A stretch of 64,000 nucleotides of DNA, taken from NCBI GenBank assembly GCA_015063135.1, contig SUTA01000002.1:104134-168133 (forward strand), written 5' to 3'. A program made the position numbers and the translations under genes. Positions 3,958 to 61,657 of the stretch are shown in pieces. The notes under the pieces are model-generated. The model ran no database searches. It was given only the letters and a program-made list of their open reading frames with translations, and had not been told where the DNA came from. Source of the stretch: Thermoplasmata archaeon (GTDB lineage: Archaea; Thermoplasmatota; Thermoplasmata; Methanomassiliicoccales; Methanomethylophilaceae). How positions within the stretch are numbered: position 1 is the stretch's first letter; each line of letters opens with the position of its first letter.

Positions 3958-4998
3958 ATGCGCATACTCGGCAGGGACCCCTCGGACAACTCGGTGAAGG
4001 TCTACATCGAGACAGACGAGGACATCTGGCATCTCTACAACGTGATCGAGGAGGGCGACCTGGTCACCGCCTCCACCACCCGCAGGGAGGAGAAGTCCGC
4101 CGACAAGATCAGGGCCGAGAGGGCCGAGAAGAAGCGCATGACCCTGGGGATCCGCATCGAGAAGATGGAGTTCTCCGAGGACGACCTCAGGCTTAAGCTC
4201 CTAGGGACCATCGAGACCGGCCCCCAGGACATCGGCCAGCACCACACCCTTATCCTGGAGGTCGGGGACCAGCTGTCCATCGGGAAGCCCCACTGGAGGC
4301 AGACGCACAGGGATAGGCTGGAGAGGGCCGTCAGCGACTCCAAGAAGCCTAGGATCGTGTTCGTGTCCCTCGACCAGGACGAGGCCACCATCGCAGTGCT
4401 GAGGCAGTACGGGCTGAAGGAGGTCGTGACCATGAGGTCCGGCAGGTCCGGGAAGCAGTACGCCGAGAAGCCGCAGGCCGACAACTACCACAGGGAGATC
4501 ATGGACAAGCTGCTGCCGCTGATGGAGCCGGGCATGCCCCTGGTGCTCCTAGGGCCGGGCTTCGAGAAGGAGGCCCTGTCCGAGTCCCTGAAGAAATCCG
4601 GGGAGCCCCTGTTCTCGAGGCAGTTCGTGTACCATACGGGGCAGACGGGGATGGCCGGGGTGAACGAGCTCCTGAAGGCCGGGATGGGAGCGGATGTCCT
4701 CAGGGAGTCCTCCGTGGGGACGGAGATAGAGGCCGTGGAGAGCCTCATGGCCGAGATAGGGAAGAACGGCCCCGCCACGTACGGCGATATGCAGATCAGA
4801 GCCGCCGCGGACGCGGGGGCCATAGAGAAGCTCCTCATCCTCGACTCCAGGATAAGGGAGCAGGACCTCGACGACCTCGTCAGGGCCGTGGAGGCCCAGA
4901 AGGGGACCGTGCTGGTGGTGTCCTCCCAGCATGACGGCGGGAAGCAGCTCGCCGCCCTAGGCGGGATGGGGGCCATCCTGAGGTACAGGATGGAGCGA
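3958..4998 (+). CDS. pelA: Pelota (Dom34), ribosome rescue factor; ends at CGA
   Basis: Archaeal pelota binds stalled ribosomes with aEF1A/ABCE1 and promotes subunit splitting. The N-terminal Sm-like domain (residues 1-125, starting MRILGRDPSDNSVKVYIETD), an eRF1-like central domain with RIVFVSLDQDEATIAVLRQYG and a C-terminal domain ending GGMGAILRYRME are all present. The family normally ends at this RYRM motif; here the next codon is CGA (4996-4998), giving 346 residues, a typical length. Read-through would add 24 codons to TAG 5070 and would run across the TATA box of the next gene. A TATA-like element (about 3929-3936) lies 27 nt before the ATG. No internal CGA. Confidence 0.95.
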
Positions 4999-5006
4999 CC
5001 TCGGCC

Positions 5007-5014
5007 TTATATAC
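5007..5014 (+). promoter_or_regulatory. TATA box of the DRE-TIM gene
   Basis: TTATATAC lies 9 nt after the CGA that ends pelota. It would place transcription start near 5035, just before a small upstream ORF at 5039. Confidence 0.5.
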
Positions 5015-5038
5015 GATTCTTATCTTACAGTTACAAGG

Positions 5039-5056
5039 ATGCACCCGCAGGAACGA
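5039..5056 (+). CDS. Possible 5-codon upstream ORF (MHPQE, stop CGA)
   Basis: ATG CAC CCG CAG GAA followed by CGA begins at the predicted transcription start and precedes the DRE-TIM gene in the same frame. If CGA terminates, the downstream ATG at 5093 must be the real start and this is a leaderless uORF. If CGA were sense, this ATG would give an 18-residue N-terminal extension with no resemblance to the family. It could simply be chance. Confidence 0.3.
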
Positions 5057-5092
5057 TTATTCCAGCGTAGCGTGCGCTCGGATGGGATTCAC

Positions 5093-6271: not shown

Positions 6272-6279
6272 ATTCAACA

Positions 6280-6389: not shown

Positions 6390-6420
6390 TTTATATCCAT
6401 CAAGCAAAGTAGACATGGGC

Positions 6421-6780
6421 ATGACAAAGCTCAGAACCAGCCAGCTATTCGGCCAGAAGCATGTGATCGATATCATGATGCTTCTATACTTCTTCGGGGA
6501 CAAGACCCGCGGAGAGATCTATAAGGCCGTCTCTGCCTGCAACACCATGCCCGAGAAGCTGGAGCAACTGGAGGAGTACGGCATCCTCGAGACGAAGAAA
6601 GGGCACCGCTACGGAAGCAAAGTGACCTGCCTGACCAAAGACGGTCGCAAACTCGCTGAGGACTTCCTTTCGATGGAGATATTCCTCAACGGCGACCTGG
6701 AGGAGTACCGTGTCGACACCGCGTGCCGCATGTACAGCGACCATCTCGAGATAACCGAGGACGGGATGAGATGGAACCGA
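6421..6780 (+). CDS. Winged-helix transcriptional regulator; ends at CGA
   Basis: Small DNA-binding protein of about 119 residues. The segment HVIDIMMLLYFFGDKTRGEI, then LEQLEEYGILETKKGHRYGSKVTCLTKDG, is a typical winged-helix DNA-binding domain with wing; the remainder is a short C-terminal helix region. The ATG at 6421 lies 26 nt from the TATA element (6415 is the alternative). Homology ends at EDGMRWN followed by CGA (6778-6780). The frame would otherwise run to 7053 antisense inside paaK. It meets the convergent paaK tail to tail with zero intergenic bases: the two CGA codons form the palindrome CGATCG. Confidence 0.75.
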
Positions 6781-8088
6781 TCGCTCGTAGGACCTGTTGT
6801 CGGTGACGTGCGACGCCTTGCCCTCGAACCTCGGCAGGGTGCCCGGCAGCACCAGCCTCACATCGGCCTTGATGTTCAGGATGCTCTTCATCCTGTCAGC
6901 GGTCAAGCGGGTCATGCGCGAGAGCTCCACCATGTCCTCGGTCAGATGGTCCTCGTCCAGTTCGACCTCCACCACCATGCTGTCCATGTAGTTGGCGTTG
7001 TTGAGCGTGATGTGGTAGAACGGGGACAGGAACGGCATCTCGCCGATGACTGATTCGATCTGCGACGGGAACACGTTGACACCGCGGACCACGAGCATGT
7101 CGTCGGTCCTGCCGGAGATCCTCATCAGGCGGGGGTGGGTCCTGCCGCACTTGCATGGGGACCAGTCCAGGGCGGAGATGTCGCCGATCTTGTAGCGGAT
7201 CAGGGGGAACGCCTCCTTCTGGAGCATCGTGACCACTATCTCTCCCCTCTCGCCGTCCTTGCAGGGCTCGCCGTTCTCGTCGAGGATCTCCATGTAGCAG
7301 AGGTCTGCCCAGACGTGGAGCCCGCACTGCTCGCTACACTCCAGGAACATGGGGCCGTAGAACTCGCTGGCGCCGTAGCAGTTGTGGACACGGACGCCGG
7401 TGCGGTCCTGGAGCTTCTGCCTCATGCTCTCGGACCAGGGCTCCCCGCCGGCGATGGCCAACCGGACCTTGGTGTCCTTCCTGATATCGATTCCCTTCTG
7501 GTCGCAGACATCAGCGATATGGAACATGTAGGAGGGCGTGCCCGCCCAGACGGTGACTGGGAGGTCCTGCATCAGCTGGATCTGCCTCTCGGTATTGCCG
7601 GTTCCTATGGGGAGCACGGTAGCTCCGACCTTCTCGGCACCGTAGTGGACGCCGAGTCCGCCGGTGAACAGCCCATAGCCGTGGAAGTTCTGGAACATGT
7701 CCTTGCTGCTCATACCGAACGAGGTCATCCCCCTGGCCAGGGACTCTGTCCAGTTCTCAAGATCCTTCCTGGTGTAACCGACTACGGTGGGCTTGCCGGT
7801 GGTCCCGGAGGACACGTGCACCCTCACAAGCTCATCGTATGGCCTGACGAACAACTTGTCCGGATAGTTGTCGCGGAGGTCGGACTTCCTCATGAACGGG
7901 ACCTTGCGGAACGCCTCGAAGCTCGTGATGTCCTCGGGCTTGACGCCGGCCTCGTCCATCCTGCCGCGGAAGAACGGCGAGATCTCGTACATCTCCTCGA
8001 CCTTGGCACGGAGCAGCCTGAGCTGCATCTCCTCGAGCTTCTCGCGGGGCATCGTCTCGATCTCTTCGTTCCAGAAAGCCATGGTCAT
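6781..8088 (-). CDS. Phenylacetate-CoA ligase (PaaK) family AMP-forming ligase, copy 1; ends at CGA
   Basis: Adenylate-forming acid-CoA ligase, probably activating aryl acetates or similar acids for 2-oxoacid:ferredoxin oxidoreductase metabolism. It has the P-loop VHVSSGTTGKPTVVGYT, the YGASEFYGPMF acceptor motif, a CxC pair (SPCKCGRTHPR) typical of this clade, the VRGVNVFPSQIE segment and the C-terminal LPRFEGKASHV with catalytic Lys. Homology ends at DNRSYE followed by CGA (6781-6783), giving 435 residues, matching copy 2 (432) at 9.9-11.2 kb. Read-through would add 99 antisense-derived codons. Start at ATG 8088, downstream of an SD-like GGAAGG run and the TATA element at about 8135-8145. 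Confidence 0.9.
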
Positions 8089-8196: not shown

Positions 8197-8499
8197 ATGA
8201 GAACGAAGGACATGGCCCGCTGGGGCATCGCCATAATGGTCGTCCTGATGGCCCTGATCATCGCCGTGGTGATACTGACTGGGGGTTCCGACGTGAGGAC
8301 CCAGGTTATCGCATCCGGGGCGGCGTCCATGGTCATGATGACGTTCGTCCTCGTCTTCGCGGTTTTATACACGCGCCAGATGAGGGTGGAGGCCGCGGAG
8401 GCGGAGCTGACCGGGCAGTGCCCCCGCTGCAAGGTCCCGCTGGGAGCCGACGGCGCCTGCCCCCAGTGCGGGACCCGGTGGTCCCGCGACAAGAACCGA
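8197..8499 (+). CDS. Two-TM zinc-ribbon membrane protein; ends at CGA
   Basis: A 100-residue protein of unknown function. Two membrane segments (WGIAIMVVLMALIIAVVIL and the segment around MVMMTFVLVFAVLY) are followed by a cytoplasmic zinc ribbon CPRCKVPLGADGACPQCG. ATG 8197 lies about 27 nt after a TATA element (TTATAC, 8170-8175); a TTG at 8182 is too close. It ends RWSRDKN then CGA (8497-8499). The frame would otherwise continue to 8955 antisense to the next gene. The convergent neighbour's CGA stop is only 2 nt away (CGAGGTCG). Confidence 0.65.
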
Positions 8500-8501: not shown

Positions 8502-9464
8502 TCGCGGGAGGATTATCGACCCGAGGACGCGAAGCTTCCCGCCCTCGAGGTACATCAGTATGGCGCGGTCGCCGGGCTTGTGGATCATATCGGAGTCCAT
8601 CTCCAACGCGACCTGCGCCTGGCGGAAGTCTGAACCGTCATCGACCGCGGTGACCCTGCAGGGCACCATCTGCATCCAGTGGCCGAGGTGCAGGACCATG
8701 CCCTCCTTGAGGGGGGTGGGCCAGTACTTGACCAGGGACGACTTGCCGGAGACGGACCTGGACATCTTGACCGACGCGTCGGTGGTGAGGACGTATCCCC
8801 TGTCGAGCTCGTCGGACTCGATGCCCCTGAGGGCCAGCCCGACGTGGTCGCCCTTGACGCCGTCATCGGCATCTATGTCGTGCTTCTGGATGCTCTTGAG
8901 GATGACCTCCCTGTTGATGGGGAAGACCTTCATCTTGTCGTGCTTCCTGAAATAGCCGTCGATGACGGAGCCCAGGACCACGGTCCCGACGCCCTTGACG
9001 TTGAAGTGGCTGTCCACGGGGCAGGAGCCGCATGAGCCCTCGCCGGGCTGCTTGGCGGCCGCCTTGGCCATGGCGATGAGCTCCTCCCTCATCTTGATGG
9101 GGTCCTCCTCGCGGTACTCGTAATGCTCCAGGCAGGTCCCCGCCAGGATGGGGGCCAGCTGCTCGGGCTGGATGTAGTTCCTGAGGATGATGAACCCCTT
9201 GTCGATGCCCAGGGAGTCCACCATGACGATGGTCTCCCCCAGGAAGGAGTCGATCTTGTCCACTACTAGGATGCAGAACTCCGACATGGCGACGGAGTAG
9301 AACAGCGATGACAGCTTCTCGGGGTACTTGGAGGGCTCGATAAGGGTGAAGGAGTCGGTGCCCGCCTTGTGGTCGTAGAAGGTCATGTCTGTGACGGTGC
9401 CCTTCTTGCCTACGGTCCCCGCATACCCCGGGGTGCCGACCACCGCGATGTTCAGGTTGCCCAT
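8502..9464 (-). CDS. EF-Tu/SelB-like protein with degenerate GTPase domain; ends at CGA
   Basis: 320 residues resembling translational GTPases: N-terminal Rossmann-like part (MGNLNIAVVGTPGYAGTVGK), then the two beta-barrel domains (GVGTVVLGSVIDG, HDIDADDGVKGDHVGLALRG, the MVPCRV segment, GGKLRVLGSIILP). The G domain looks inactive: no GxxxxGK[ST] P-loop and no NKxD. It therefore may bind aminoacyl-tRNA or a partner without GTP hydrolysis; this is inference. It ends exactly at the family-like IILP followed by CGA (8502-8504). It follows the ACT protein by 4 nt, in an operon paaK2-ACT-EF-Tu-like. Confidence 0.75.
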
Positions 9465-9902: not shown

Positions 9903-11201
9903 TCGTAACTTCCTGGTATCGATAACGCGTTTTGCCTTGCCCTCGAACCTGGGCAGTTCTCCGGGGGCCTTGAGCTCCACGGTGACGGCGATGTTGAGGT
10001 ACTTCTTGAGCTCCGACTCGATGTGTGACCTGAGGCGGATCATGTCCTCCAGCTTGTCGGTGAACGCCTCCTCCTTGATCTCCACCTGCAGCACCATGTT
10101 GTCCAGGGCGCCCTCCCTGCTGACGTATATCATGTACTGGTTCCCGACCTGGGGGATCTGCAGCAGGGTGTATTCGATCTGGGACGGGAACACGTTGATA
10201 CCGCGGATGATCAGCATGTCGTCGGACCTGCCGGTGATCCTGCTGATCCTGGGGGAGGTCCTCCCGCACTCGCACTCGTCCTCGTTGAGCGTGGTGATGT
10301 CCCTGATCTTGTAGCGGATCATGGGCATGGCCTCCTTCTTCAGCATAGTGACCACCATCTCTCCCTTCTGGCCGGGCTCCAGGGACTCCCCCGTGTCCGG
10401 GTCCAGGATCTCGACGTACATGATGTCGCCGGCGATGTGGATGCCCTTGCGCTCCTCGCACTCGGTGAACATCGGGCCGGCCTGCTCGGAGGTCCCGTAT
10501 ATGTCGTAGGCCTTGATCCCCATGTCCTGCTCGATGTGCTGGCGCATGCTCTCGGACCAGGGCTCCGCTCCCAGGACCGCCTTCCTCAGCTTGGTGTCCC
10601 TCCTGAAGTCGACGCCCATCTTCTTGGCGACGTCCCCCATATGGACGAGGTAGGAAGGGGTGCACGCGATAGCGGTGACCCCGAGGTCCTGGATGAGCTC
10701 GATCTGCCTCTCGGTGCCGCCGGTCCCGGTGGGAAGGACGGTCGCACCGACCCTCTCGGCCCCGTAGTGGAGTCCGAGGCCGCCGGTGAACAGTCCGTAG
10801 CCGTAGGAGATCTGCATGGTGTCGTCCGGGCCGATGCCCACTGAGGTCAGGGACCTGGCCAGGGCCTCGGTCCAGTACTCGAGGTCGTTCTTGGTGTAGC
10901 CCACGAGGGTGGGCTTGCCGGTGGTCCCGGAGGACACGTGGTACCTGACGACCTCGTTGTTCGGGACGGTGAACATGTTGGTGGGGTAGTAGTCACGCAG
11001 GTCCTGCTTGTACATGAACGGCAGCTTGGTGATGTCGGCCAGGCCGGTGATGTCGTCAGGATGGACGCCCTGGACCTTCATCCTGTCGTGGTAGAACTTG
11101 TTGAATGAGTAGAGGTTGTTAACGAGTGCTTTCAGCTCGCGGTACTGCAGCTGTTTCAGCTGCTCCTTCGGCATGCACTCAATCTTAGGGTTCCAGTACA
11201 T
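9903..11201 (-). CDS. PaaK-family phenylacetate-CoA ligase, copy 2; ends at CGA
   Basis: Paralogue of the 6.8-8.1 kb gene with the same motifs: YHVSSGTTGKPTLVGYT, IYGTSEQAGPMF, DECECGRTSPR, IIRGINVFPSQIE, LPRFEGKAKRVID. It ends DTRKL then CGA (9903-9905), 432 residues, the usual length for archaeal PaaK. Read-through would run 16 codons into the next gene's SD and start region. Start at ATG 11201 (MYWNPKIECMPKEQLKQLQY). First gene of an operon with the ACT protein and the EF-Tu-like protein, which supports a role in aryl-acid/amino-acid metabolism. Confidence 0.92.
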
Positions 11202-12796: not shown

Positions 12797-14017
12797 ATGG
12801 CCCCCAAGAAGATCCTTCTGGTCGTATTGGACGGAATGTCCGACCGCGCATGCCCCGAGCTCAGGGGATCCAGCCCGCTCCAGTACGTGCGCAAGCCCAA
12901 CCTCGACTGGTTCGTGGACCACGGGATCGCGGGGCTGTGCGACCCCATCGCCCCGGGCATCCGCTGCGAGACCCTGCAGACGTACCTGTCCCTGCTCGGT
13001 TACGACCCCATGGATTCGACCTACGGCCAGGGTACGTTCGACGCCCTCGGCAAAGGCCTAGACCTCCAGCCCGGCGATGTCGCAATCAGATGCAGCTTCG
13101 CCACGGTGGACGAGACGGGCCAGATCGTGGACCCGTCCGCCGGGGGCCTGACCAACGGGGAGACAGCCAGGTTCGTGAAGGCCCTGGACGGCATCGAGGC
13201 GGGCGGGGCGGAATGCACCCTGTCCCCGGGCACCGGCCACCGCGCCATACTGGTCATCAGGGGCGACGGCCTGGGATCCAACATCTCCTGCCCCTACGGG
13301 GAGCCCGTGGCCGCCCTGGACGACGAGTCCTGCGAGACGGCCGACATAGTCAACTCGCTCATGGAGCAGTATGCCGAGGCCCTCGCCGACCATCCGCTCA
13401 ACAGCGAGCGCATCGCCGAGGGGAAGCCCCCTGCGAACATCCTGATCCCCAGCGGGGCCGGGGGGTACCCGGAGATGGAGAGCTTCTCCGAGACGCACGG
13501 CCTGAGCTCGTGCTGCGTCGCGGGTTACGACCTCATCAAGGGGATATGCAAGGCCATGGACATGGACATCTACCCTCTGGCCGAAGCCTGCGACGGCACC
13601 GTCCACACCAACTTCGGGGCCAAGATGGACTGCGCCATGATCGCCCTGCAGGACTACGACTTCGTCATCATCAGCTACAAGGCCGCGGACGTGGCCGGTC
13701 ACATGGGGGATCCGAAGGCCAAGTGCGATGTGATCAAGATGCTGGACACCACCATGGGCTACCTCAGGGCCAACATCAGCGACGACCTGCTCATCGCCAT
13801 TACCTGCGGCCAGTGCACCCCCTGCGGGCTCGGCCTCCACGCCGGGGACCCGGTCCCCGTGGCCATCTACACCAAGAACTGCATCAGGGACGATGCCACT
13901 GAGTTCAGCGAGACCGGCTGCTCCCACGGCTCCATAGGCAGGATACGCGGGTCCGACTTCCTGAGGATCTGCATGGACATGGCGGACCGCAGCCCCACGC
14001 CGCAGTCGCGCATACGA
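12797..14017 (+). CDS. apgM: 2,3-bisphosphoglycerate-independent phosphoglycerate mutase, archaeal type; ends at CGA
   Basis: Interconverts 3- and 2-phosphoglycerate in glycolysis/gluconeogenesis. The alkaline-phosphatase-superfamily metal site (LVVLDGMSDRACPEL), SCCVAGYDLIKGICKAMDMD, SYKAADVAGHMGDPKAKCDVI and the C-terminal CSHGSIGRIRGSDFLRICMD are conserved. Homology ends at TPQSRI followed by CGA (14015-14017), 406 residues, the normal size. Without termination the frame runs to 14671 across two antisense genes. It overlaps the convergent prepilin-like gene by 12 nt, both ending in CGA. A TATA-like GTAAATAC lies about 26 nt upstream of the ATG. Confidence 0.95.
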
Positions 14018-14443
14018 TTCCGCCTTTATCGTCACCGTCCCCCCTGCCGTCACCTCGACCTCCTTCCTCATGGAGTCAGACATCCGCCCGTGGCCGTCGC
14101 CTATGCTTATCCCCACGCCGCCGTACTCGGCGGTTATCCTGTACATCCCCTCCCCGAAGTAGATGTCCCCAAGCTCCGCCATGTATCCCATAGCCGAGCC
14201 GTCACCGGAGGCGATGCCGTAGGCCACCATGTCCGTCAAGGAGACCAGGGAGTCGTCCTCCCCTCCCAGGTCGGACATCCTGACCTCCACGCCCATGACC
14301 GCATCCATGAACTCAGACGTACGGGTCGTGTGGTCCTGCGAGGGCTCGGAGTACCCCGCCGTTATCGTGAAGGCCACCAGGAGTATCGCCATGCAGACCA
14401 TGGCATCCGCCATCGCAAGGAACCCACGGTCGCTCAGGCGCAT
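14006..14443 (-). CDS. Prepilin-like secreted protein B; ends at CGA
   Basis: 145 residues. N-terminus MRLSDRGFLAMADAM followed by a hydrophobic stretch (VCMAILLVAFTITAGY) resembles a class III/type IV prepilin leader, with likely cleavage before Phe in RG-FLAMAD, although Asp replaces the usual Glu. The rest is acidic and extracytoplasmic, ending KAESYA then CGA (14006-14008). Overlaps the upstream prepilin-like gene by 10 nt. It lies about 2.4 kb from FlaI/FlaJ-like genes on the other strand, so it is probably a pseudopilin of that system. Family assignment is weak. Confidence 0.6.
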
Positions 14444-17375: not shown

Positions 17376-19147
17376 TAGGGAGGATCCGCTCCGGCGGCCT
17401 GATAATCCGCCCCGAGCCCGAGGACAGGCCCAGGCCGAGGAGAGCCTCCTGCAGGAGCCCCGCTCCGGAACCGCCGCCCGGGCCAGGGCCCGTGTCCATA
17501 GACGTCCGCCGCGCCAGGCCCTCGAGGGTCGGGGTGCCCAGGAAGTTCGGGCCGCTCCTGTCCTCGTCCATCGCCGATGACATTAGGAGGAGGCCCTCCT
17601 ATGCGGACACATGGATGCTGCCCCCAACGCCTGGCACGGAGCCCATAGCATCCTACGAATCGGACGGCTGGTCCGCATCCGTGGGGACGGCCCCCGACGG
17701 GGAGTACGAGTACACGCTCATCCCCCTGGAGTACTCCCTGCCCGATGCGGCCAACAGGCTGGTGTCGGAGGCCGTGGAGGCCGTCAGGGGGAGGTACATG
17801 GACGAGGGCGGGCCCACGGACAGGGACTCGGTCCGCGCGGCCGCCCGGAGCTTCCTCTGGGGGCGCATGGACGAGCTGGAGGACGCGCTGGGAGATGGGG
17901 CGGCCGCCAAGGTGGATGCCATCTGCGGAGCGGTCCACAGGCACGCCTTCGGGGCCGGCATCCTGGAGTCCGTCCTGTCCGACCCCCATATCGAGGACGT
18001 CTACATCGACGCCCCGTGCTGGGAGAACAGGATCTACGTCACCATGAACGGGATCGAGGGAGTCAACTCCCACATGAGGTGCAGGACCAACCTCCTGGCC
18101 GGGCCGGGGGAGGTCTCCAACCTCATCAACATACTGAAGCGCGAGAGCGGGCTGAGGTACTGCCAGTCCTCGCCGGTGCTGGAGACGGACCTCCCCGGCT
18201 TCGATGCGAGGGCGACCATCGTGGGCTATCCCATGAGCCCCAACGGCGATGCCGTCGCCATAAGGAAGCGCTCCGACCGCCCGTGGACGCTGCCCAGGCT
18301 GATCATGAACGGGACCATGGACGCCGGCACGGCGGGGCTGCTCTCGTTCATGGTGGACAACAGGTGCACCATGCTGGTGTGCGGGGCCAGGGGATCGGGC
18401 AAGAGCTCCCTGCTTTCCGCCCTGATGTTCGAGCACTCACCCAAGAACAGGATCATCACCATAGAGGACACGATCGAGCTGCCGGGAGAGACCATGAGGA
18501 AGCTCGGCTACAAGGTGCAGACGATCCTCGTCGACGACAGGATGAACGGCGACCAGCTTTCCAGGTCCAACGAGGCCCTGAGGCTCTCGCTGAGGCTGGG
18601 GGAGTCGGCCATTGTGCTGGGGGAGGTGAGGGGCGAGGAGGCCAGGACCCTCTACCAGAGCATGAGGACCGGCAGGGCCGGGAGCTCCATCATGGGGACC
18701 GTCCACGGTGACTCGGCGAGGACCGTGTACGACAGGATGGTCCACGACCTGGGGATCTCCGCGGAATCGTTCATGGCTACCGATGTGATCGTCACCCTGG
18801 GCACCCGCAAGGACAGGACGACTGGGAACCTGGTCAGGAGGGTGGAGGAGGTCGCCTCCACCACCTCCCGCCCGGGCGAGTTCTCGGACATCACCGAACC
18901 GTCCCGCATGCTCTCCTCCAACGTGATCCGCCGCGCCATGACATCCGGCTCCATGGCAGAGTCGGATGTGTCCGCTGAGATAGCCGCTCGCGGGACCATG
19001 CGCAGCATGCTGGCCGACGGGGGGAGGAAGGACGAGCGCTACCTCAGGCCCGAATGGGTGATGGCGGCCAACGAGGAGCTGTCCAAGGGCGTCCGCGGAT
19101 CCCCGGAGCGCCTGAGGGCCAGGATGCGCGAGGGGGCGATGCCTTGA
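17372..19147 (+). CDS. FlaI/TadA-like type IV pilus/secretion ATPase
   Basis: 591-residue hexameric ATPase that powers pilus or archaellum assembly at the membrane. An unusually long Pro/Arg-rich N-terminal region (about 100 residues) precedes the N-terminal domain ([16 protein letters not shown]). Walker A is [14 protein letters not shown] (about residues 335-348), followed by the Asp box ([10 protein letters not shown]), Walker B with Glu ([13 protein letters not shown]) and the His box ([16 protein letters not shown]). It overlaps neighbours at both ends (ATGA; TTGA). I read all Arg codons in frame and found no CGA. Confidence 0.9.
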
Positions 19148-25323: not shown

Positions 25324-25394
25324 TTTAATACGGATTAAGGTTGTCTTAAAACTGTGCGGCAACACATGATATCCGCAAAAAGGCGGTGATTTTC

Positions 25395-35790: not shown

Positions 35791-36123
35791 TCGGAGCTCG
35801 TCGAACTCTATCGAATTGCTTCCCGATTTCTTGGCCAATCCCTTCGAGATCATCCCCTCCTCCAGCCAGCATGCATTGAACACCGCGGGGACCGCCAGAC
35901 ACTCGAAGCAGACGTTCTTCCTGACCTCCGGGGACATGATGCGGCTGCTGTAGATGTCGAGGATGTCGTCCATCGGCACGCCCTTCGCCAGCTCTTCGCC
36001 GAACTGCTGAAGCTTGGAGCAATCTGATTCCAGTTCAACGGAGATCGCGTCATCGCAGTGGACGGCGGTTATCCTGCATGTCTTGTCGCATACGCGCATG
36101 CATACTCTGACCGTGGAGGGCAT
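35791..36123 (-). CDS. Small Cys-containing archaeal protein (DUF6951-like); CGA directly before TGA
   Basis: 110 residues. Regularly placed cysteines (VCMRVCDKTCRITAVHCDD, SDCSKL, NVCFECLAVPAVFNACWLEEG) suggest metal or redox function. It resembles the small methanogen DUF6951 proteins, a tentative match. It ends SNSIEFDEL, then CGA (35791-35793) and immediately TGA, a double stop if CGA terminates. Downstream of the YhaN-like gene by 25 nt on the same strand. Confidence 0.6.
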
Positions 36124-52359: not shown

Positions 52360-52872
52360 ATGGGATTCACGATAAGGGATGCAGGCGTCGGCGACCTCGA
52401 CCAGCTGGTGGCGATCCGCATGGCGGCCATAAGATACGTCTACGCGCCGTACGGCAACTTCCTGACCGACGAGCTCTGGGCGAAGCTGGAGAAGGAGGTC
52501 CGCGATTTCTACTTCGACTGCCTCCTCGACGGATCCCACGTCGCGTGCCTGGCGCTTGTCGATGACGAGGTCGTCGGATGCGGCGGGATGTGCATCTACA
52601 GGGAGCTCCCGTCCCCGGAGAACTCGTCCGGGATAAGCTGCTACATCATGAACGTGTACACCGCACCGGAGCACCGGCACCAGGGCATCGGCAGGGCGAT
52701 GATGGACGCCCTCATATCGAAGGCCCACGAGGCGGGTGCAAGGAAGGTCTATCTCGAGACCTCCGACGCCGCGAGGAAGCTGTACGCCGACGAGGGATTC
52801 GTGGATATGAAGGGCTACATGCGCCTCCCCGGCGACTACATGGAATGGCGCAGGAAGCTGGGTATCGAGCGA
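52360..52872 (+). CDS. GNAT N-acetyltransferase; ends at CGA
   Basis: 170 residues. Motif A NVYTAPEHRHQGIGRAMMDALISKAHEAGARKVYLET, then AARKLYADEGFVDMKGYMRLP. It ends WRRKLGIE followed by CGA (52870-52872). ThiM follows in the same frame, so reading CGA as Arg would produce a GNAT-ThiM fusion. Substrate unknown. Confidence 0.85.
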
Positions 52873-52905: not shown

Positions 52906-53703
52906 ATGGATTTCAAGCCGTCCGTTTTCATGGCAAAGGTCCGTTCTACGAAGCCTCTGGTTCATCACATCACCAACTATGTGACCGTCAACGACTGCGC
53001 CAACATCTGCCTTTGCGCAGGCGGATCGCCCGTCATGACGGACGAGATAAAGGATGTGTCCGAGATGGTCCGCCTCGCATCCTGCGTGGTCATAAACATC
53101 GGGACCCTCAACGACCGCACGGTCGAATCCATGATGCTCGCCGCCAGCCTGGCGCACGAGAAGGGGATCCCCGTGGTCCTGGACCCGGTTGGCGTCGGCG
53201 CCACCAAGTACCGCACGGAAGTAGCGCTGCGCCTCCTCGGGACCGGATGCATCTCGGTTGTCAAGGGCAACATGGGCGAGATGGGCGTCCTATCCGGAGC
53301 GGGCGGCACGGTCAGGGGCGTCGACTCCGAGGGCTCCTCGGCCGATCCTGCGAGAATAGTCCGCGACATAGCCGGGAAGTGGAACGTCGTGGCCGCCGCA
53401 TCGGGAGAGGTGGATTACGTATCCGATGGGGAGAAGGTCTACAGGCTGTCAAACGGCAACGGCTATATGGGAACGGTGTCCGGAACCGGATGCATGCTGT
53501 CCTCCGTGGTCGGATGCTATGTGGGCGCCTGCGGGCCGTCTCCGGAGGCCGTCGCTTCGGCGGTCACCGCGATGAACGTCGCCTGCGAGTACGCCCTGGG
53601 GAACTTCGATGGCCCCGGGACCTTCAAGCCCGCGTTGCTCGACGCCCTCTACTGCCTTGACGGCGAAATAATGGATGCCAAGGCAAAGATAGAACTGCTG
53701 CGA
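52906..53703 (+). CDS. thiM: Hydroxyethylthiazole kinase; ends at CGA
   Basis: 265 residues, the family length. Phosphorylates hydroxyethylthiazole in thiamine salvage. Motifs: PLVHHITNYVTVNDCANICLCAGGSPVM, VVLDPVGVGATKYRTEVALRLL, VVKGNMGEMGVLSG, GYMGTVSGTGCMLSSVVGCYV (catalytic Cys region). It ends AKIELL then CGA (53701-53703). ATG 52906 chosen; 52930 is the alternative. The CGA abuts the CGA of the convergent pth2 gene as the palindrome CGATCG. Confidence 0.95.
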
Positions 53704-54087
53704 TCGCAGCATCTTGAGCTCGCCGGTGATACGGTCGATCTCAGACTCGGGGGCTGGGCCTATGCCAACGCAGGTCTCGCTCCCGGGCTCAACCTGCGTC
53801 CTCCCGGCATCGGTTATGAGCGCGACGTGGAGGCCGCTGCTCGATGCCAGCTTCAGGTACTGATGGAGCTCCTCCAGGGAATCCACCTTGAGGACGACCT
53901 TCCTCTGGCCGCCCTTGTACCAGGCGTCGAAGGCCTTCCTGTTGCGCTCCTTCGCGAACAGGGCGCACTCCACGGCCGCGTGGCCGACCTGGGCCGCTAT
54001 CTTGCCGGTGCCCATCTTGAGGTCCTTCCTCACGATGACGACGAGCTTGTACTCCTCTCCGACCGCAGCCTTGAATCCGAAAGCCAT
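53704..54087 (-). CDS. pth2: Peptidyl-tRNA hydrolase Pth2; ends at CGA
   Basis: 127 residues. Releases tRNA from prematurely terminated peptidyl-tRNAs. Motifs: YKLVVIVRKDLKMGTGKIAAQVGHAAVE, QRKVVLKVDSLEELHQYLKLA, ITDAGRTQVEPGSETCVGIGPAPESEIDRITGELKML. The family C-terminus is TGxLKLL; here TGELKML is followed directly by CGA (53704-53706). A TATA (TTATAT, about 54110-54115) overlaps the stop region of the upstream gene. Confidence 0.95.
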
Positions 54088-54120: not shown

Positions 54121-55338
54121 TCGGGCCACGGCCAGGCCGTAGTCCCCCGTGTACCTCTCGCCGTAGTAGGTGTACACGCCGCGTATCAGGTCGAAGCCGA
54201 AGCAGTCCCTCATGAGCCCCAGAGAGGGGCCCACCAGGGGATCGGCCGCCACATACCTGCTGCCGCCGCGTGAGAACTCCTTGAAGACGAATCCATCCGA
54301 CACATCGCGAGGCGCCTTCATCTGGACGGCCACCGCGACCATGCAGTAATCCGGGAGCCCGAGGATCCCGCAACCCATCCCGGCGGACTGCAGCAGCGAG
54401 GCGTAGAGCACGCAGAGGTCCTCCGAATCGCCGCTGCCGGCGAGCAGGGTCTCCACAGGGAACGCCCTGTACTGCTCGACACCATAGTTCTTGGCATCGG
54501 GCGCGTAATCGAAGCACTCCCTGACGAATGACAGCAGGAAATCGGCGTAGGCGGCATCGCTGTACCCGTACGACGAATCGAAAGCGCTGCGCAGGGACTT
54601 CTGCAGGCTGCCGATGGACCCGCCTGGCGTGATGAAGCGCACGGCATCCGCCAGCGCCTCCCCGTGCCTCAGGGAATCCTGGGCGGCTGTGCCGGACCTG
54701 TACCGCTCTATATCGTCCCTGGTGAGGACCGATGAGACCGATACCCGCTCCCCGCCGTAATCCCAGGCGTAGTTCAGGGTCTTGTCCCCGTAGTAGGTCA
54801 TCCCGCCGTAGTACGTCGCGGCGGCCTTGTCGTCGCTCTCGTGCGCATAGCAGTAGGCCATGATGGCGAAGAGCCCCACGTCGGGTTCCGTCCATTTCGC
54901 CTCCGGCTCCGTCTTCGTGGCCGTCTTATAGGTGTTGCTGAGATCGTCCCGCAGGACCCAGACGTAGCTCTCGTAGCCGTCGGCGATCGCACCGTCGAGG
55001 TATATTATGAGCTCGCCGCTGTTGTTCAGGTAGGCGTTCAGCTCACCGGTGGTGAAATCATCGGTCAGCTCGATGTACCTGCTGGAGTCCACCTGCAGGA
55101 TTATGCTGTTGGCCGGGTTCACGATCGGGCCCTCGTCCGTACCGCCGTTGTCGACTATGAAGAACGCGAGGAGGCATACCAGTACGGCTATCACGGCTAT
55201 GCCGGAGGCCACGACGGTCTTGCGCCCGTTCCGCAGCCTGTACAGGATGCCCTCGTCGTACGTCAGGTCCTGGCCGCAGAAGGGGCAGTAGCGGAGATTC
55301 TCGCCCTCGAAGGTCCTCCCGCAGTATGGGCAGAACAT
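54121..55338 (-). CDS. Zinc-ribbon, single-TM protein with transglutaminase-like domain; CGA then TAG
   Basis: 405 residues. Two CxxC zinc knuckles (MFCPYCGRTFEG, RYCPFCGQDL), one TM (about 40-62, VVASGIAVIAVLVCLLAFFI), then an extracellular part. A transglutaminase-like core is visible around GDSEDLCVLYASLLQSAGMGCGILGLPDYCMVAVAV, but the usual catalytic Cys of GDCED is Ser. It ends YGLAVA then CGA (54121-54123) and directly TAG (54118-54120), a natural double stop. Same operon as the membrane-anchored HTH protein (29 nt gap), with which it may form a sensor. Confidence 0.6.
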
Positions 55339-55367: not shown

Positions 55368-57833
55368 TCGGCTGAAGTCGCCGAGCTTGTAATCGATGGT
55401 CATGTCCTTGAAGCAGTAGAACAGCCTGAAGGTGTTGCCGTCGTCCTTGACGTCGATCTCCTTGGTGCTGCCGGTATCGTAGGTAACGATGATCTTGGTC
55501 CCCGTGGCCTGGGCGCTGCCGAAGGTCACGTTCAGGGTCTTCCCCTTGATCACCTCGAGCTCTCCGGTCACATAGTTGCCGTCGATGGCGTAGTCGCCGT
55601 TGAACGACAGGACGACGGTGGACGAGGGCATGTCCTTGACCTCGATGCCGTCCATGGACGGGTCCCTGACCAGCAGGGTCTTCCAGAGGACGGAATCCGC
55701 CTTATCGCCGGATGTGGACAGGTACTTGCCGTCGTCGGCGGTGATGCGGAGGACGGCGTTGGCGCCGACCCACAGGCCGCCGGTGGCCGCCTCGTAGTCT
55801 TCAGCGGTGTAGTACCCGCGGTAGGTATAGGCGCGCTTGTCGGATATCTGGTCGGCGAAGTTGTAGATCTGCGCGGAGACGGACTCCGGGAGCGATACCT
55901 CCGACAGGGACTCCAGCTTCAGGTCCGAGGACACCTTCACCGAGTAGACTCCGTTGCCTCCCGGCGACAGCCTGTAGGCCAAACCGCTCTCCGTGTAGCC
56001 TATGTCTGTCCCCTCCTCGACGGAGAAGCGGAGCACGGAGTTGACCGCAACCTCGGAGGGGGCGTCGATCTCGTTCCCGAACTCGTCGAAGAAGACCAGG
56101 CCGCAGTCCGCATCCTCGATGTCCACGCTGAACGTGTCCGCAACGGACCCTGAGTCGCCTCCCATGGAGAACGCGAGCACCGCGGCGACCATGGCGAGCA
56201 CCGCGAACGCGGTGATGTACCTGACGGTCCTGGCGGGCTTCCCGGTGGCCTTCTCGCTGCGGTTGAACAGCGCGGTCTTGACCGAGGAGGTCCTCCTCTT
56301 CGTGCTGGCGGCGGGGGCGAGGTTCTCGACCCTGATCCCCTCCACGGGGGTCATGCTGAGCGCGGGGTAGATCTCCTTGAACGAGATCTTGCTGCTCTCA
56401 TCGTCGCCCTCCATGTTCCTGACGAATATCCCGTCGCTGGCCATCTCCAGGCCCTGGTGGGCCATTCCCTTGACGAACGTCATGGCGGTGGAGATGCTGG
56501 ATTCGGGGTCCTCGGCCGAGATGCCGATGGTCAGGGGGTACACCGACACGACGTTCATCGACAGCCCAATGGCGCGTGCGATGTCCGACATCTTCCCGAA
56601 GAAGAGGTCGAAGTTCTTGGGCTGACCGTATCCGGCAGCCCTCATGTACTTGGCGCCCAGGACCACCATGAGGTAGTCTGTGTCGAATCCCAGGGCCTTG
56701 AAGTAGCCTATCGTGTAGAGGAGGTACCCCTCCATGAACGCCCCGTCCTTGGCGGCGACCTCCGAGAGCATGCCGCTCATGTCGTCGTCGATCGGGTTGC
56801 GCACCTTCTTCATCAGGATGGAGCAGGACAGCCCGTAGTAGGCCGACCCGGACTCGGAGTAGAAGACGGTGATGACCCCCTCCTCGACCATCCTCAGCAG
56901 GTTGGAGGTGATGGTGGAGCGGGGCGCGTTGACGCAGTTGACTATGTCCGTGATGCACAGGGGCCTCTCGTAGATGGCGTCTATCATGTCCAGCTGGACA
57001 TCGCTGGTCATCAGGCCGGCGGAGCCGTCCAGGTCGACCATCATGAAACGGGATGCCTCCTTCTTGGGCAGCGAGAGGTTGAGGTAGGGCTCCTCGCGAG
57101 GCTCGGCGCGGTCGAAGGTGACCTTGATGCGTGCGGAGTCCTCGGAGCTGAAATCCTCCAGGCCCACGACCTCGTAGTGCTTGCCCGTGGCGTTCTCCAC
57201 GGACCTGGCGACGAAGCGAGAGAGCATGTCGACCTTGGGGACCATGGTCCTGTCGCCCTCGAACACGAGGGACAGGGGGCTGAGCCCGTAGACGCTGAAC
57301 TTGAACCCGGTGACCCTGGCGAACTCCTCCCTGATGGCGGGGATGCAGTCCTCGAGGGTGCCCTCCGGAAGCGAGCGGGAGCACTCGTCGGCGAAGGCCG
57401 AGGCGTACCTGTTCCTGACCTGGTCCAGGTCGAGGCCGATCTCGCAGGTGTAGCTCTCGAGCATGTTCGCGACGGCGGAGAGCCCGTCGTAGTACCTGGA
57501 CGGGTCCCTGAACGTCTCGTCTGCGATGCGCTTGGAGACCTCGTCGGGGGTGAAAGACCCGGCCACCTTAATGGCCAGGTTGGAATAGTAGACGGACTTC
57601 TTCTCCGGGTCCGGCTTGGATCTGACCACGACCCCGGCCTCCACCATCTTGTCGAGCACGAAATGCAGCGACGAGGACGGTACGCCGAGCTCCGCGGCGA
57701 TGTCGCTGGGCCTCTTGGTCCCGGTCTGCAGGCAGTTGTAGACCAATATCTGCATGGGGTCGGTAAGCGGCACGACCCCCCTCTCCGTCAGAAGCACGGT
57801 GAAGTTGCGCAGGTATTCATCCTGTGATCCCAT
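55368..57833 (-). CDS. Membrane-anchored HTH regulator; ends at CGA
   Basis: 821 residues. N-terminal winged helix (RPSDIAAELGVPSSSLHFVLDKMVEAGVVVRS), a second HTH around residues 285-340 (ITDIVNCVNAPRSTITSNLLRMVEEGVITV), a region with RPSD-type linker, one TM about 540-560 (YITAFAVLAMVAAVLAFSM), then an extracellular beta-rich domain ending TIDYKLGDFS and CGA (55368-55370). A one-component signal transducer that senses outside and binds DNA inside is inferred. TATA CTTTATATTATC precedes ATG 57833 by about 25 nt. Ligand and targets unknown. Confidence 0.7.
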
Positions 57834-57896: not shown

Positions 57897-58547
57897 TCGG
57901 AAGTTGATGTCATCCGGCCTGATGTGGGGCCTCACCTTCAGGATCAGGTCGCGGAGATCGTGGGCCGCGGCCCTCACATCGTCCTGGGCTACGACCGCGG
58001 ATACGACCGCCGCGGAGTCCGCTCCGGCGCGGATGACATCCTGTATGTTTCCCCTGTTTATGCCCCCGATAGCGACGACTGGCACATCTACGGCCTGCTT
58101 TATCTCGTAGATGGGGGAGAGGCCCAGCCCCTGCGCCGCGTCGGGCTTGGTCGATGTGGTGAAGATTGACCCGACCCCGACATAATCAGCACCGTCCTCT
58201 ACGGCCTTGACGGCCTCCTCGACGGTCGTTACGGAGCATCCGATGAGCGCATCGGAGCCCATCAGCCTCCTGGCCACATCCACCGGGATGTCCGACTGCC
58301 CCAGATGTACGCCGTCGGCCCCTGAAGCTATGGCTATGTCCACCCTGTCGTTGACGATGAATATCCTGCACATGTCCTCGGCGATCTCGCGGATGGCTAT
58401 GGCCTGGGAGAGCATATCCCCACCGTCGGCGTGCTTCATCCTGAGCTGGACGACGTCGGCCCCACCCTCGTAGGCCATCCTGGCTATCTCTGCATCGGAG
58501 CGTCCCTTGGACAGGTCTGAATCGGTGACGACGTACAGGTCGAACAT
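57897..58547 (-). CDS. thiE: Thiamine-phosphate synthase; ends at CGA
   Basis: 216 residues, TIM barrel coupling HMP-PP with thiazole phosphate. Motifs: YVVTDSDLSKGRSDAEIAR, DVVQLRMKHADGGDML, FIVNDRVDIAIASGADGVHLGQSDIP, LIGCSVTTVEEAVKAVEDGADYVGVGSIFTTSTKPDA, VVAIGGINRGNI. It ends RPDDINF then CGA (57897-57899), matching the family length. TATA TTTTATAG (about 58571-58578) overlaps the stop of the upstream ABC ATPase. Confidence 0.95.
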
Positions 58548-58576
58548 GCAACCTGGATTGGGCTGGACCTATAAAA

Positions 58577-59368
58577 TCGGTACCCGTCAGCCATCTCTTC
58601 GCCATCGTTATCGTAGATATGAACATAACGCCCGTGGACGGTCTCGACCACATCCGCGCTGACATTATAGACTTCCTTCAGCATGGTAGGCGTTATGACC
58701 TCCTCCGGCGGCCCAGACGCATAGATCTTTCCATCCTTCATGGCCAGGACCTTGTCCGAATACCTCATCGCGAGATTGATGTCGTGGAGGGCTACCACAA
58801 GACTGGCACCCTTGTCACGAATGATAGCCTTCATTATGCGCATGAGATCCAGCTGGTTGCGCATATCAAAAGCGCTGGTCGGCTCATCGAATATGTAGAA
58901 ATCTGGGTCCTGTGCGAGCGATCTGGCTATGACGACCCTCTGCAGCTGTCCGCCGGAAAGCTGGTTTATGAATGAGTCCACATAGTTCTCCATCTTCATC
59001 TTGAGAATCGCATCCGCACATATGGCTACATCTTCCTGGGAGTACGTCCATTCGATGTACGGCCTCCTGCCCATCAGGACCGTATCGTAAACTGACGAAT
59101 GCCCGCCCGACGTGTAATCCTGCGGAACATAGGAGATCAGCCTGGAACGCGCTTTGCGCTCCATCGTGATAACATCTTCCCCATCGATGGTTACGGTCCC
59201 GGCCCTCGGACTGTAGATACCGCAGAGCGTCTTGATCAGGGTGGACTTTCCGCACCCGTTGGGCCCCAGGACGGTGACGAGCTGCCCCGATTCAGCCTCC
59301 AGATCGATTCCGTCGAGGACAATCTTGTCCCCGTACCCCTGGACTATGCCCTCGGCACGCAGGATCAC
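58577..59368 (-). CDS. ABC importer ATPase (FecE/BtuD type); ends at CGA
   Basis: 263 residues. Walker A VLGPNGCGKSTLIKTLCG, Q-loop SYVPQDY, signature LSGGQLQRVVIARSLAQDPDFYIFDEPTSAFD, H-loop VVALHDINLAMRYSDKVL. GTG start overlaps the permease TGA (GTGA). It ends GEEMADGY then CGA (58577-58579); read-through would extend 31 codons into thiE in another frame. Energises import of a ferric-siderophore-, cobalamin- or molybdate/tungstate-like ligand. Confidence 0.93.
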
Positions 59369-60513
59369 GGGACCTCCCTCCATCTCTTGTTGACGACCAT
59401 CCAGATGAAGAATCCGCCTCCGATTAAGTAAATCAGGATGCCGACTGGAACATCGCTGGAGAAGGCATTCCTGGCCACGGTGTCCGATATCAGCAATATG
59501 AGCCCGCCCATCAGCGCCGATGCGGGTAGTAGATACCTGTTGTCGTTGCCGATGAGCCTCCTGCAGATATGGGGCGCCATCAACCCGATGAAGCCGATTG
59601 CCCCTGTAAACGAGAGACAGACGCACACTACCACAGTGCAGACCAGCAGCCCGTGCATCCTCAGCTTGGCGACATTGGTTCCGAGATTGTTCGCGACGCT
59701 GGTGCCTGCAGAAAGAGTGTTGATGTCGATGCTGATCTTCTCGAGATATATCAGGCAGATGATGACCGGGATGATCATAATGAACAGATTCACCCAAGTG
59801 GCACTCCATAGATTTCCCATCGTCCACAGGGTAATATCCCTCAGCGAGCCATCATCGGATATGTATTTCAGGAAAGACAATCCCGCCTGGAAGAGATAAC
59901 TAACGACTACCCCGGACAGGACCAACGTAGCCTTCGATACCCTCTCGTCCCTGGCTAGGATTATCACAAGGGCAATACTGAGCATCCCGAAGAGGAACGC
60001 GAACAGCATCGTCACAAGGGCTGAACCGGAGAATGTCTGGCCGATGAAGTCCACATGGAAGCTGTACAGGCCTCCGAACAACGCTGGACCCATGACTATG
60101 GCGATTCCTGCACCAAAGGCGGCAGCAGTGGATACCCCCAGGGTAAACGGACTGACCAACGGATTCCTGAGAATACCCTGCATAACGCAGCCGGCGGCAG
60201 CAAGGGCGGCGCCCACGACTACAGCCATGAACACACGGGGCATCCTGTCCTCAACCACGATATTAGTGAATCCGGCAGCCACATCATCGAAAACATGGAT
60301 AACGCAGTTCACTATAATTTTCAGAGTATCGGAGAAAGGGATGTCGGTGGGGCCGAGGGAAAGCCCCACAACGACCATAACTGCGATGGCTGCTACGATT
60401 CCGAGGATGAAGTGTATCTTCTTCTTCCTCGAGATGCCGTAACGCTCCACCAGATCGTCGCGGCTGGTGCGCTCGGATATGTGCGCCACCAGTTCCTCCC
60501 TCGGCTCCACCAT
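59365..60513 (-). CDS. FecCD-family ABC permease
   Basis: 382 residues with about 9-10 TM helices. Motifs: PRVFMAVVVGAALAAAGCVMQGILRNPLVSPFTLGVSTAAAFGAG and GFIGLMAPHICRRLIGNDNRYLLPAS are typical of BtuC/FecCD. ATG 60513 follows the CGA of the binding protein by 10 nt with an AAGGGA-like SD. Stop TGA overlaps the ATPase GTG. Confidence 0.92.
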   Translation of the reverse strand: MVEPREELVAHISERTSRDDLVERYGISRKKKIHFILGIVAAIAVMVVVGLSLGPTDIPFSDTLKIIVNCVIHVFDDVAAGFTNIVVEDRMPRVFMAVVVGAALAAAGCVMQGILRNPLVSPFTLGVSTAAAFGAGIAIVMGPALFGGLYSFHVDFIGQTFSGSALVTMLFAFLFGMLSIALVIILARDERVSKATLVLSGVVVSYLFQAGLSFLKYISDDGSLRDITLWTMGNLWSATWVNLFIMIIPVIICLIYLEKISIDINTLSAGTSVANNLGTNVAKLRMHGLLVCTVVVCVCLSFTGAIGFIGLMAPHICRRLIGNDNRYLLPASALMGGLILLISDTVARNAFSSDVPVGILIYLIGGGFFIWMVVNKRWREVP

Positions 60514-60523
60514 TTGTATCCCT

Positions 60524-61657
60524 TCGGTAAACCAGTTTCTCGACGAGCGGATGATCGTCATCGACCGGGAACTTGAAACCGTACTTCTCCAGGAAGTCCT
60601 CGGTTTCCTTCTCCAGGTGTGCGATGTTCTCGTCTGTCAGGGTGTCGGTAAACACGTAGGCGTAGATCAGGTACGAGATGCAGCACATGGCACCGGACAC
60701 CACATGGGTGTTCAGGTAGTACACGGGCACGGAGTTGTCCTCTACGAAGTCCCCCATGGTGGTCCCGGACATGACCTGGCTGTCGAATACTGCCTTGATC
60801 TGGTCGACGGTGTATCCATCGGTGCCCCTCGTGAACACTATGTCCGTGGCTGGCACCAGCGTATCGTGCAACAATGCGAACAGGGCCTCTCCGGTATACT
60901 GTCCGAATGACCCGGAGGACTGCTGGGCACGGTTGTATCCACTGATGTAGGTCACGATAGTATTGAGCTCGGAACTGCTATAGTAGTAGTTTCCGACTGA
61001 ACCGCTGGAAGATGCCATGTAGTATACGAATCTCTGGCCTGTGTCGGGTGTCGGCTTGATGGTTTTGGCCTCCTCGATAAAGCCGTTGAAATAATCCTTG
61101 AACTCATTGGCATTCGCCTTTATGTCGGAAGTGCTCCCGAAGACCTTCACCAGGATGTCAAGGTTGTCCAGCATCCTAGATCCGAACATGTCCACATATA
61201 CGACTTTGATACCTTTCGCTGTGATGGCATCGGCCTGCACGGTGGTTCCAATCCCCATGGTGGTGGGGGTCAACACCACTTCAATCCCTGCGCCCTTCAT
61301 CTTCTCTATGGATGTGGACCCTGAGAAGGCGGAACGCTTTCCCAGATCGACGACGTCGGACTGCTTGATCCTGTCCGTGCTGGACGGGATCTTGTCCCTT
61401 CCGTCAGAATCCATACCGACGATGGCGTCCTCGACGCCGAGAATCTGCAGTGCGTACATGATGTCGGTATTCACCACTGCAACCTTCTCCGGAACGGTAT
61501 CCAGTGTTACCGTGCGACCATTGTTGTCCACTACGGTGATGGTGTCACCGCCACCGCCTCCACCGCCACCGCCTCCGCTTGACAGTGCAAAGGCTGCGAC
61601 TGCCACTACGGCCACGATGGCCACCGCGATGATGGCGATGATCTTGGTGTTGCTCAT
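60524..61657 (-). CDS. Periplasmic-binding-protein-like FecB/BtuF receptor; ends at CGA
   Basis: 377 residues. N-terminal membrane anchor (KIIAIIAVAIVAVVAVAAFAL), a poly-Gly linker, then a FecB/TroA-like domain (TITVVDNNGRTVTLDTVPEKVAVVN, GVEDAIVGMDSDGRDKIP, VDLGKRSAFSGSTSIEKMKGAGIEVVLT). It ends HPLVEKLVY then CGA (60524-60526). Ligand unknown; a metal chelate or corrinoid is likely given the permease type. Overlaps the upstream gene's TGA (ATGA). Confidence 0.88.

Follow-up and report, generated by a model that had tools for sequence, protein, structure and literature searches.

We report that in the genome of a Methanomethylophilaceae archaeon the arginine codon CGA very probably serves as a major stop codon, likely read directly by the release factor aRF1 in a genome where no competing tRNA-Arg(UCG) was found. 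The analysis starts from a window of 64,000 nucleotides (contig SUTA01000002.1, positions 104,134 to 168,133; G000:C8:104134-168133 in our numbering, G000 being the window genome) with a guanine plus cytosine (GC) content of 62%. The window genome is an archaeal draft assembly of 1.86 Mb in 40 contigs with a completeness of 87%, of which about one third was read base by base. When its aRF1 was compared with a named genome collection, from which the window genome itself and very near genomes may be omitted, the closest records were Candidatus Methanomethylophilaceae and other Methanomassiliicoccales, at no more than 87% identity. We refer to the genus of the window as clade A, to Methanomethylophilus and its kin as clade B, and to the further groups as C, D, E, T and O.

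The position of CGA at gene ends was confirmed. All 27 CGA triplets that a preliminary description of the window had taken for gene ends are present on the strand given there, and 26 of them are the ends of genes called independently; for the remaining one (42100, minus strand) no gene was called. Calls were made with a coding-potential caller that treats CGA as a fourth stop and was seeded with the codon usage of aRF1. This caller was adopted because homology counts querying all open reading frames had been spoiled by antisense frames in GC-rich DNA; those counts were discarded. The caller finds 61 genes in the window, ending at TGA (28), CGA (26), TAA (5) and TAG (2), which reproduces the earlier TGA count but not the earlier 6 TAA and 0 TAG. 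Across 441 kb of the window genome, the 411 called genes end at TGA in 195 cases, CGA in 193, TAA in 17 and TAG in 6. CGA thus ends as many called genes as TGA, and the near-equality claimed from the window extends to the larger sample.

Loss of coding signal behind CGA is seen with both coding models that were trained. As a guard against circularity, the training of one model used the standard stops alone. Under this model the 40 codons following an in-frame CGA were non-coding in 82% of cases (n=102), compared with 89% after TGA (n=114) and 8% after CGC and AGG. With CGA included among the training stops, the signal was lost after CGA in 96.5% (n=170) and after TGA in 93.8% (n=161). The same kind of scan at 14 outgroup loci scored 9% of CGA codons (n=43) as followed by non-coding sequence. 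Most CGA ends are not closely backed by another terminator, the next standard stop lying a median of 27.5 codons downstream (224 CGA genes in 554 kb) and at least 9 codons away in 181 of the 224. The aRF1 gene of the window genome itself ends at CGA, with the next standard stop at the 64th codon from there. CGA runs directly into ATG (CGATG) at 26 of 190 CGA ends, and TGATG occurs at 16 of 187 TGA ends. T is the base at position +4 after 86 of 190 CGA stops compared with 54 of 187 TGA stops (p=0.0013), and C is the least used base there after CGA (18/190).

Alignment to relatives gives the same picture from conserved sequence. The 554 kb were aligned to 594 CGA-free proteins of relatives, those with any CGA being left out, which yielded 16,444 codons. 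Among the 994 aligned arginine codons are 645 AGG, 283 CGC, 40 AGA, 12 CGG, 10 CGT and 4 CGA, and all four CGA lie at, or no more than 2 codons from, the end of the gene or its homologue. CGA as an arginine codon is missing from the conserved interiors compared, in agreement with its earlier description as unused for arginine in seven genes. As a triplet in any frame, however, it is abundant, with 1615 occurrences on the plus strand of the window. The converse comparison, which the preliminary description had proposed as a check, places CGA where proteins end: 54 homologue ends fall in the sequence of the window genome at TGA (27), CGA (20), TAA (1) or no stop (6).

Within the window, NCBIfam profiles were run on the frames read through 21 of the 27 CGA sites; for the CGA at 20524 another frame was run. 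The best profile match ends 0-3 residues before the CGA at 7 of the 21 sites (pelota, the two PaaK ligases, CbiK, citrate synthase, ThiM and Pth2). In the other 14 frames the match ends earlier, is weak or is absent, and none of the matches listed for the 21 read-through frames spans a CGA. The CGA at 52870 separates two proteins in one frame, a GNAT acetyltransferase and ThiM, which are matched separately. The 27 sites are as follows.

3958..4998, plus strand: pelota (mRNA surveillance), CGA at 4996; TIGR00111 over residues 2-344 of 346, profile 2-350 of 351; gene call.
6415..6780, plus strand: gene, CGA at 6778; coding-potential call.
6781..8088, minus strand: phenylacetate-CoA ligase-like protein (PaaK), CGA at 6781-6783; TIGR02155 over residues 26-447, reaching profile end 422/422; 450 residues before the CGA.
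8197..8499, plus strand: gene, CGA at 8497; coding-potential call.
8502..9464, minus strand: SelB/EF-Tu-like GTPase, CGA at 8502-8504; partial TIGR00475 match, 148-304 of 320 aa; gene call.
9903..11201, minus strand: second PaaK-like ligase, CGA at 9903-9905; TIGR02155 over 35-456 of 458, profile 422/422.
12797..14017, plus strand: apgM, 2,3-bisphosphoglycerate-independent phosphoglycerate mutase, CGA at 14015; PRK04024 over 4-399 of 406 aa.
14006..14413, minus strand: convergent gene, CGA at 14006-14008; coding-potential call.
19144..20526, plus strand: gene, CGA at 20524; coding-potential call.
20873..21682, minus strand: CbiK-like cobaltochelatase, CGA at 20873-20875; NF047852 over 7-268 of 269 aa; gene call.
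23430..23978, plus strand: gene, CGA at 23976; coding-potential call.
23971..24594, plus strand: gene, CGA at 24592; coding-potential call; no NCBIfam match.
24664..25260, plus strand: gene with a weak esterase match (NF007758), CGA at 25258; gene call.
25386..25967, plus strand: gene with a weak regulator match (TIGR02366), CGA at 25965; gene call.
25978..26799, minus strand: methanogenesis marker 8, CGA at 25978-25980; TIGR03275 over 10-262 of 283 aa, profile 259/259.
35791..36099, minus strand: gene, CGA at 35791-35793; gene call; no NCBIfam match.
41266..42111, plus strand: CobQ-like protein, CGA at 42109; NF001989 over 3-242, profile to 244/480 (first half only); gene call.
42100..42102, minus strand: CGA of the preliminary description, no gene called; base check only.
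42424..43782, plus strand: citrate synthase, CGA at 43780; NF010635 over 6-449 of 452 aa, profile 448/448.
52360..52872, plus strand: GNAT acetyltransferase, CGA at 52870; TIGR01575 and further profiles match in the read-through frame, apart from the ThiM match.
52981..53703, plus strand: ThiM, hydroxyethylthiazole kinase, CGA at 53701; NF006830 reaches profile position 262/263 and stops two residues short of the CGA.
53704..54087, minus strand: Pth2, peptidyl-tRNA hydrolase, CGA at 53704-53706; NF003314 over 12-127 of 127 aa, profile 117/117.
54121..55338, minus strand: gene, CGA at 54121-54123; gene call; no NCBIfam match.
55368..57833, minus strand: long protein of 821 aa containing a helix-turn-helix (HTH), CGA at 55368-55370; gene call; weak HTH matches.
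57897..58547, minus strand: ThiE, thiamine phosphate synthase, CGA at 57897-57899; TIGR00693 over 4-197 of 216 aa.
58577..59368, minus strand: ABC transporter ATPase, CGA at 58577-58579; TIGR03873 over 8-250; gene call.
60524..61477, minus strand: ABC substrate-binding protein, CGA at 60524-60526; weak TIGR04281 match, 41-256; gene call.

If CGA is a stop, the tRNA that would read it as arginine becomes a competitor. The Rfam and ARAGORN inventory of the 87% complete assembly (43 Rfam tRNA hits, 41 ARAGORN types) did not contain tRNA-Arg(UCG). Two relatives with single-contig genomes, G004 and G006, have 42 types each, and tRNA-Arg(UCG) is the sole difference. In G004 and in G002 its gene adjoins a conserved gene whose counterpart in the window genome is C25:94318-95364; at the syntenic site behind this counterpart no tRNA was found, and local alignment of tRNA-Arg(UCG) to the syntenic stretch scores 32, within the range of shuffled sequences (mean 22.4, maximum 40). 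These results agree with the loss of this tRNA suggested in the preliminary description. Among 31 genomes of the genus, 18 carry a strong tRNA-Arg(UCG) match, and ARAGORN adds G006, G013 and G016. Since the pattern search had missed the genes of G006 and G013, which have unusual anticodon arms, we make no claim of absence for G001, G003, G005, G008, G009, G010, G015, G025 and G029. The tRNA is also present in clade B (G032, G035, G037). In the ARAGORN drawing of the G004 tRNA the last anticodon-stem pair is mismatched, and by eye the genes of G006 (L400) and G013 (L352) apparently have a weak anticodon stem and C rather than U at position 33; judged from these features, the latter two look as if they were decaying. 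Anticodon stems of 4 bp can alter decoding (PMC13092985). Elsewhere in the window genome, close to where a contig of 12 kb ends (L150, G000:C4), two near-identical tRNA-Pro(UGG) genes lie at 9149-9224 and 10850-10923, one of them with acceptor-stem mismatches.

The second component is aRF1. Inspection of its decoding motifs, as proposed earlier, gave a divided result: NIKS and YxCxxxF are intact, and the notable residue adjoins NIKS, where a Met aligns with Arg68 of mammalian eRF1. The two archaeal aRF1 structures compared have Arg at this position. In 77 aligned rows, the Arg68 position is Met in 60 and Leu in 3 of the 63 ingroup rows; the 14 outgroup rows have K in 5, R in 5, N in 3 and Q in 1. 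The exchanges K69N and N70H occur only in the protein of the window genome among the aligned rows. In PMC5681627, Arg68 of eRF1 is described as holding the NIKS loop, and the simulated Arg68Ala exchange lowers the penalty for C at the first position from about 6 to 1-2 kcal/mol, CGA being among the near-cognate codons simulated. Because of these simulations and the Met at the Arg68 position, relaxed reading of the first base is the most likely mechanism. We infer that, ahead of GA, either C or U in the first codon position is accepted by aRF1, and direct recognition of CGA is likely. The combination put forward in the preliminary description, CGA as stop through an aRF1 with relaxed first-base reading and loss of tRNA-Arg(UCG), is supported as far as sequence comparison can speak to it.

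A database search with a query of 68 upstream codons plus the first 341 aRF1 residues matched 4055 homologues, of which the best 120, all close, were considered. Database entries show the consequence for annotation. P0001, a protein that differs from the aRF1 of the window genome by 1 residue (position 388), is read through the same terminal CGA and has 472 aa instead of the 409 aa up to the CGA. P0003, a close metagenomic aRF1, ends in KVNRECQ, and its R may be another CGA stop followed by a short tail. At two clade A loci, L034 and L102, aRF1 has NIRS for NIKS, with Arg at the position of Lys63, the residue through which eRF1 touches the first base of the stop codon; CGA ends were counted in L034 as well.

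Relatives of the window genome look like an intermediate state, with few CGA ends, CGA nearly gone as arginine and a single CGA in aRF1. CGA ends in relatives were counted only if supported by at least 2 homologues and at least 9 codons away from a standard stop; the distance was required because CGA ends no more than 8 codons from a standard stop occur where CGA is arginine (5/88 in group T). By this count, CGA ends 10 of 248 genes in clade A and 10 of 157 in clade B, the latter spread over 7 of 11 loci; for groups C, D, E, T and O combined the count is none of 440. In genes other than aRF1, clade A has 5 CGA among 4602 arginine codons, and three of these share one C-terminal tail. Clade B has 6 among 2276, every one of them at the junction behind the gene Cmk; the outgroup figure is 141 of 2733. 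CTA, CCA, CAA and CGA are all low in the coding sequence of both clades. In relatives, argS seemed at first to end at a CGA, but this was a wrong-frame artefact; argS ends in ATG TGA in those inspected with a standard TGA end.

The aRF1 genes of the relatives nevertheless keep CGA, which is nearly gone from their other genes. Leaving aside the window species, every tree row of the two clades has exactly one in-frame CGA in aRF1, at codon 77 in 18/18 rows of clade A and at codon 24 in 11/11 rows of clade B; in the window species codon 77 is CGC and codon 24 is AGG. Four sequences too short for the tree contain one (L074), one (L102), none (L091) and two (L093). In groups C, D and E, 13/16, 9/10 and 16/18 of the aRF1 CGA codons fall within the first 125 codons, where 35-39% of arginine codons overall are found; the bias is absent in T (1/5) and O (11/20). 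Because the sequences are related, rows are not independent, and Fisher values for the aRF1 enrichment overstate the number of independent cases; the fixed CGA amounts to two clade-level events plus a recurrent early bias in the other groups. The base following the clade A codon is C in 18/18. For prfB, UGA-C is reported as an inefficient stop context that forms part of its control (PMC5289835). Taken together, this pattern suggests a prfB-like autoregulation of the release factor, in which abundant aRF1 would stop at its own early CGA and scarce aRF1 would allow tRNA-Arg(UCG) to read through. A programmed +1 frameshift was not seen in the relatives: aRF1 homology continues in the same frame after CGA, which implies read-through instead. 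The window genome is no member of this type because its own aRF1 has CGC and AGG at the two positions. At codon 185, aRF1 has CGT in 17/17 rows of clade A and 11/11 of clade B, though AGG and CGC dominate.

These observations suggest a likely succession of steps. A change in aRF1 would have come first and made CGA ambiguous, after which CGA would have been purged from genes. The stage visible in relatives would be the third: aRF1 would have kept a single early in-frame CGA, which tRNA-Arg(UCG) would read through more often at low aRF1 levels. In the lineage of the window, both the tRNA and the CGA in aRF1 would then have been lost, and CGA would have spread as a stop. We consider it reasonably probable that Methanomethylophilaceae display this whole path to a fourth stop, from loss of Arg68 through reading of YGA (C or U before GA), the CGA purge and an aRF1 CGA acting as a level sensor, to loss of sensor and tRNA-Arg(UCG) and a CGA as common as TGA.

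A number of observations weigh against this interpretation or parts of it. The 10 CGA ends of clade A are confined to 6 of 19 loci, and the stretches of G004 have 1 CGA end in 22, and 0 in 22 when a distance of 9 or more codons to a standard stop is required. A single gene, Cmk, accounts for 7 of the 10 ends in clade B, and TruB follows it in frame; a read-through product is possible there, as is a true fusion in which CGA is arginine. In L071, L072, L076, L078, L081, L084 and L096 this Cmk-TruB arrangement has no standard stop for 328-331 codons after the CGA. Depletion of CAA, expected from relaxed first-base reading, is unspecific because CTA and CCA are low in clades A and B as well. Met also occupies the Arg68 position in group T, which nevertheless uses CGA as arginine (28/1315) and shows no enrichment in aRF1, so substitution of Arg68 alone is insufficient and other changes would be needed. 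Retention of a single codon is not peculiar to CGA: 7 of 18 invariant arginine columns in clade A aRF1 hold one codon only, as do 2 of 13 in clade B (L039, whose aRF1 is identical to that of L037, was left out of this count). Finally, the window genome is 87% complete and was read base by base over about one third.

Other explanations of the CGA ends were weighed against direct recognition. Passive termination is unlikely. Here CGA would merely have become unassigned with the loss of tRNA-Arg(UCG), and ribosomes stalling there with nothing in the A site would be freed either by pelota or by aRF1 acting without reading the codon. This accords with the tRNA inventory of the assembly. In Neurospora and Drosophila, moreover, eRF1 is reported to terminate translation prematurely at rare sense codons; CGA is one of the codons that cause stalling, and codon recognition is argued to be non-essential (PMC6755126). 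However, three clade B loci (L078, L081, L084) combine CGA ends with tRNA-Arg(UCG) in the same genomes (G032, G037 and G035, respectively), with the limit that the counted end in L081 and L084 is the Cmk case, and slow rescue would hardly be tolerable where ordinary metabolic genes use CGA as often as TGA. Editing of mRNA from C to U, which would turn CGA into UGA at gene ends and leave the code standard, is very unlikely. CGA and TGA are connected by one base change, and plant mitochondria are known to create UGA stops from CGA by editing. Editing, one of the causes considered in the preliminary description, would, if transcript-wide, recode NCG codons before A, and comparison of the residues with relatives revealed no clear excess of the edited one: GCG-A corresponds to Val in 3.5% of 86 cases (5-7.4% with other next bases), ACG-A to Met in 0/41, CCG-A to Leu in 1/42 and TCG-A to Leu in 0/24. 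Site-specific editing would need one guide per end for about 190 ends in 441 kb, and editing of either kind leaves the CGA inside the relatives' aRF1 unexplained.

That real TGA stops were written as CGA through assembly error or alteration of the sequence, a caution raised earlier, is hardly credible. The sequence does come from a 40-contig draft, but CGA is missing from conserved interiors despite its abundance over all frames, genomes of clades A and B that were deposited separately have CGA ends too, and P0001 is read through the same CGA. A different alternative concerns only the relatives, whose aRF1 CGA could be a slow rare codon serving folding or pausing, or a frozen synonymous site, and no autoregulatory stop. 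We regard this as possible but doubtful. Codon freezing does occur in aRF1, as the single-codon columns indicate; against it stand the near-absence of CGA as arginine from other genes of both clades (in clade B, only at the Cmk junction) and the retention of the codon at different early positions in the two clades, with an early bias also in C, D and E, though not in T and O. Direct recognition of CGA by aRF1 is the reading we carry forward.

If true, the use of CGA as a major stop by a cellular genome would represent a new class of code change. The Arg68 position becomes a candidate residue for first-base stop recognition, the stepwise relatives offer material on how codons are captured, and their aRF1 genes are a candidate case of release-factor autoregulation in archaea. 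On the practical side, predicted proteins of the window species can carry false C-terminal tails, as in P0001.

Among the papers listed, covered by title and opening of the abstract and without subscription papers or preprints, we found no cellular sense-to-stop reassignment, no CGA stop outside mitochondria and no recognisable case of archaeal release-factor autoregulation. Sense-to-stop precedents are known from mitochondria: in those of green algae, UCA and UCG became stops (PMC6821328). They share with the window genome a sense codon that disappeared from within genes and took on the role of terminator, together with changes in a class-I release factor. Those are organelle genomes of few genes with a bacterial-type mtRF1a, whereas here the genome is a cellular one of 1.86 Mb with an eRF1-type aRF1, and the codon is an arginine codon used as often as TGA, the commonest standard stop. 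Bacterial reassignments of arginine codons (CGA/CGG to Trp, CGG to Gln; PMC8629427) likewise capture CGN-box codons after depletion and tRNA changes; they are sense-to-sense changes in AT-rich bacteria, in contrast to the sense-to-stop change in a window of 62% GC. The tool of the main genetic-code survey cannot, according to PMC8629427 and PMC9825746, detect sense-to-stop changes, and a CGA stop may have been missed until now because of this blindness (PMC9825746). The simulated Arg68Ala eRF1 resembles the present aRF1 in that the Arg holding the NIKS loop is lost, with the prediction that C is admitted at position 1 (PMC5681627); that factor is eukaryotic and carries Ala, while ours is a natural Met in an archaeal factor known from its sequence alone. 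The in-frame CGA of the relatives' aRF1 is comparable to prfB, which encodes RF2: both have, early in a release-factor gene, an in-frame codon that the encoded factor would read as a stop, and in both this internal codon has repeatedly been lost in evolution (PMC13245932). The archaeal counterpart differs in being present in the relatives and not in the window genome, and in involving CGA, aRF1 and an implied read-through instead of a +1 frameshift.

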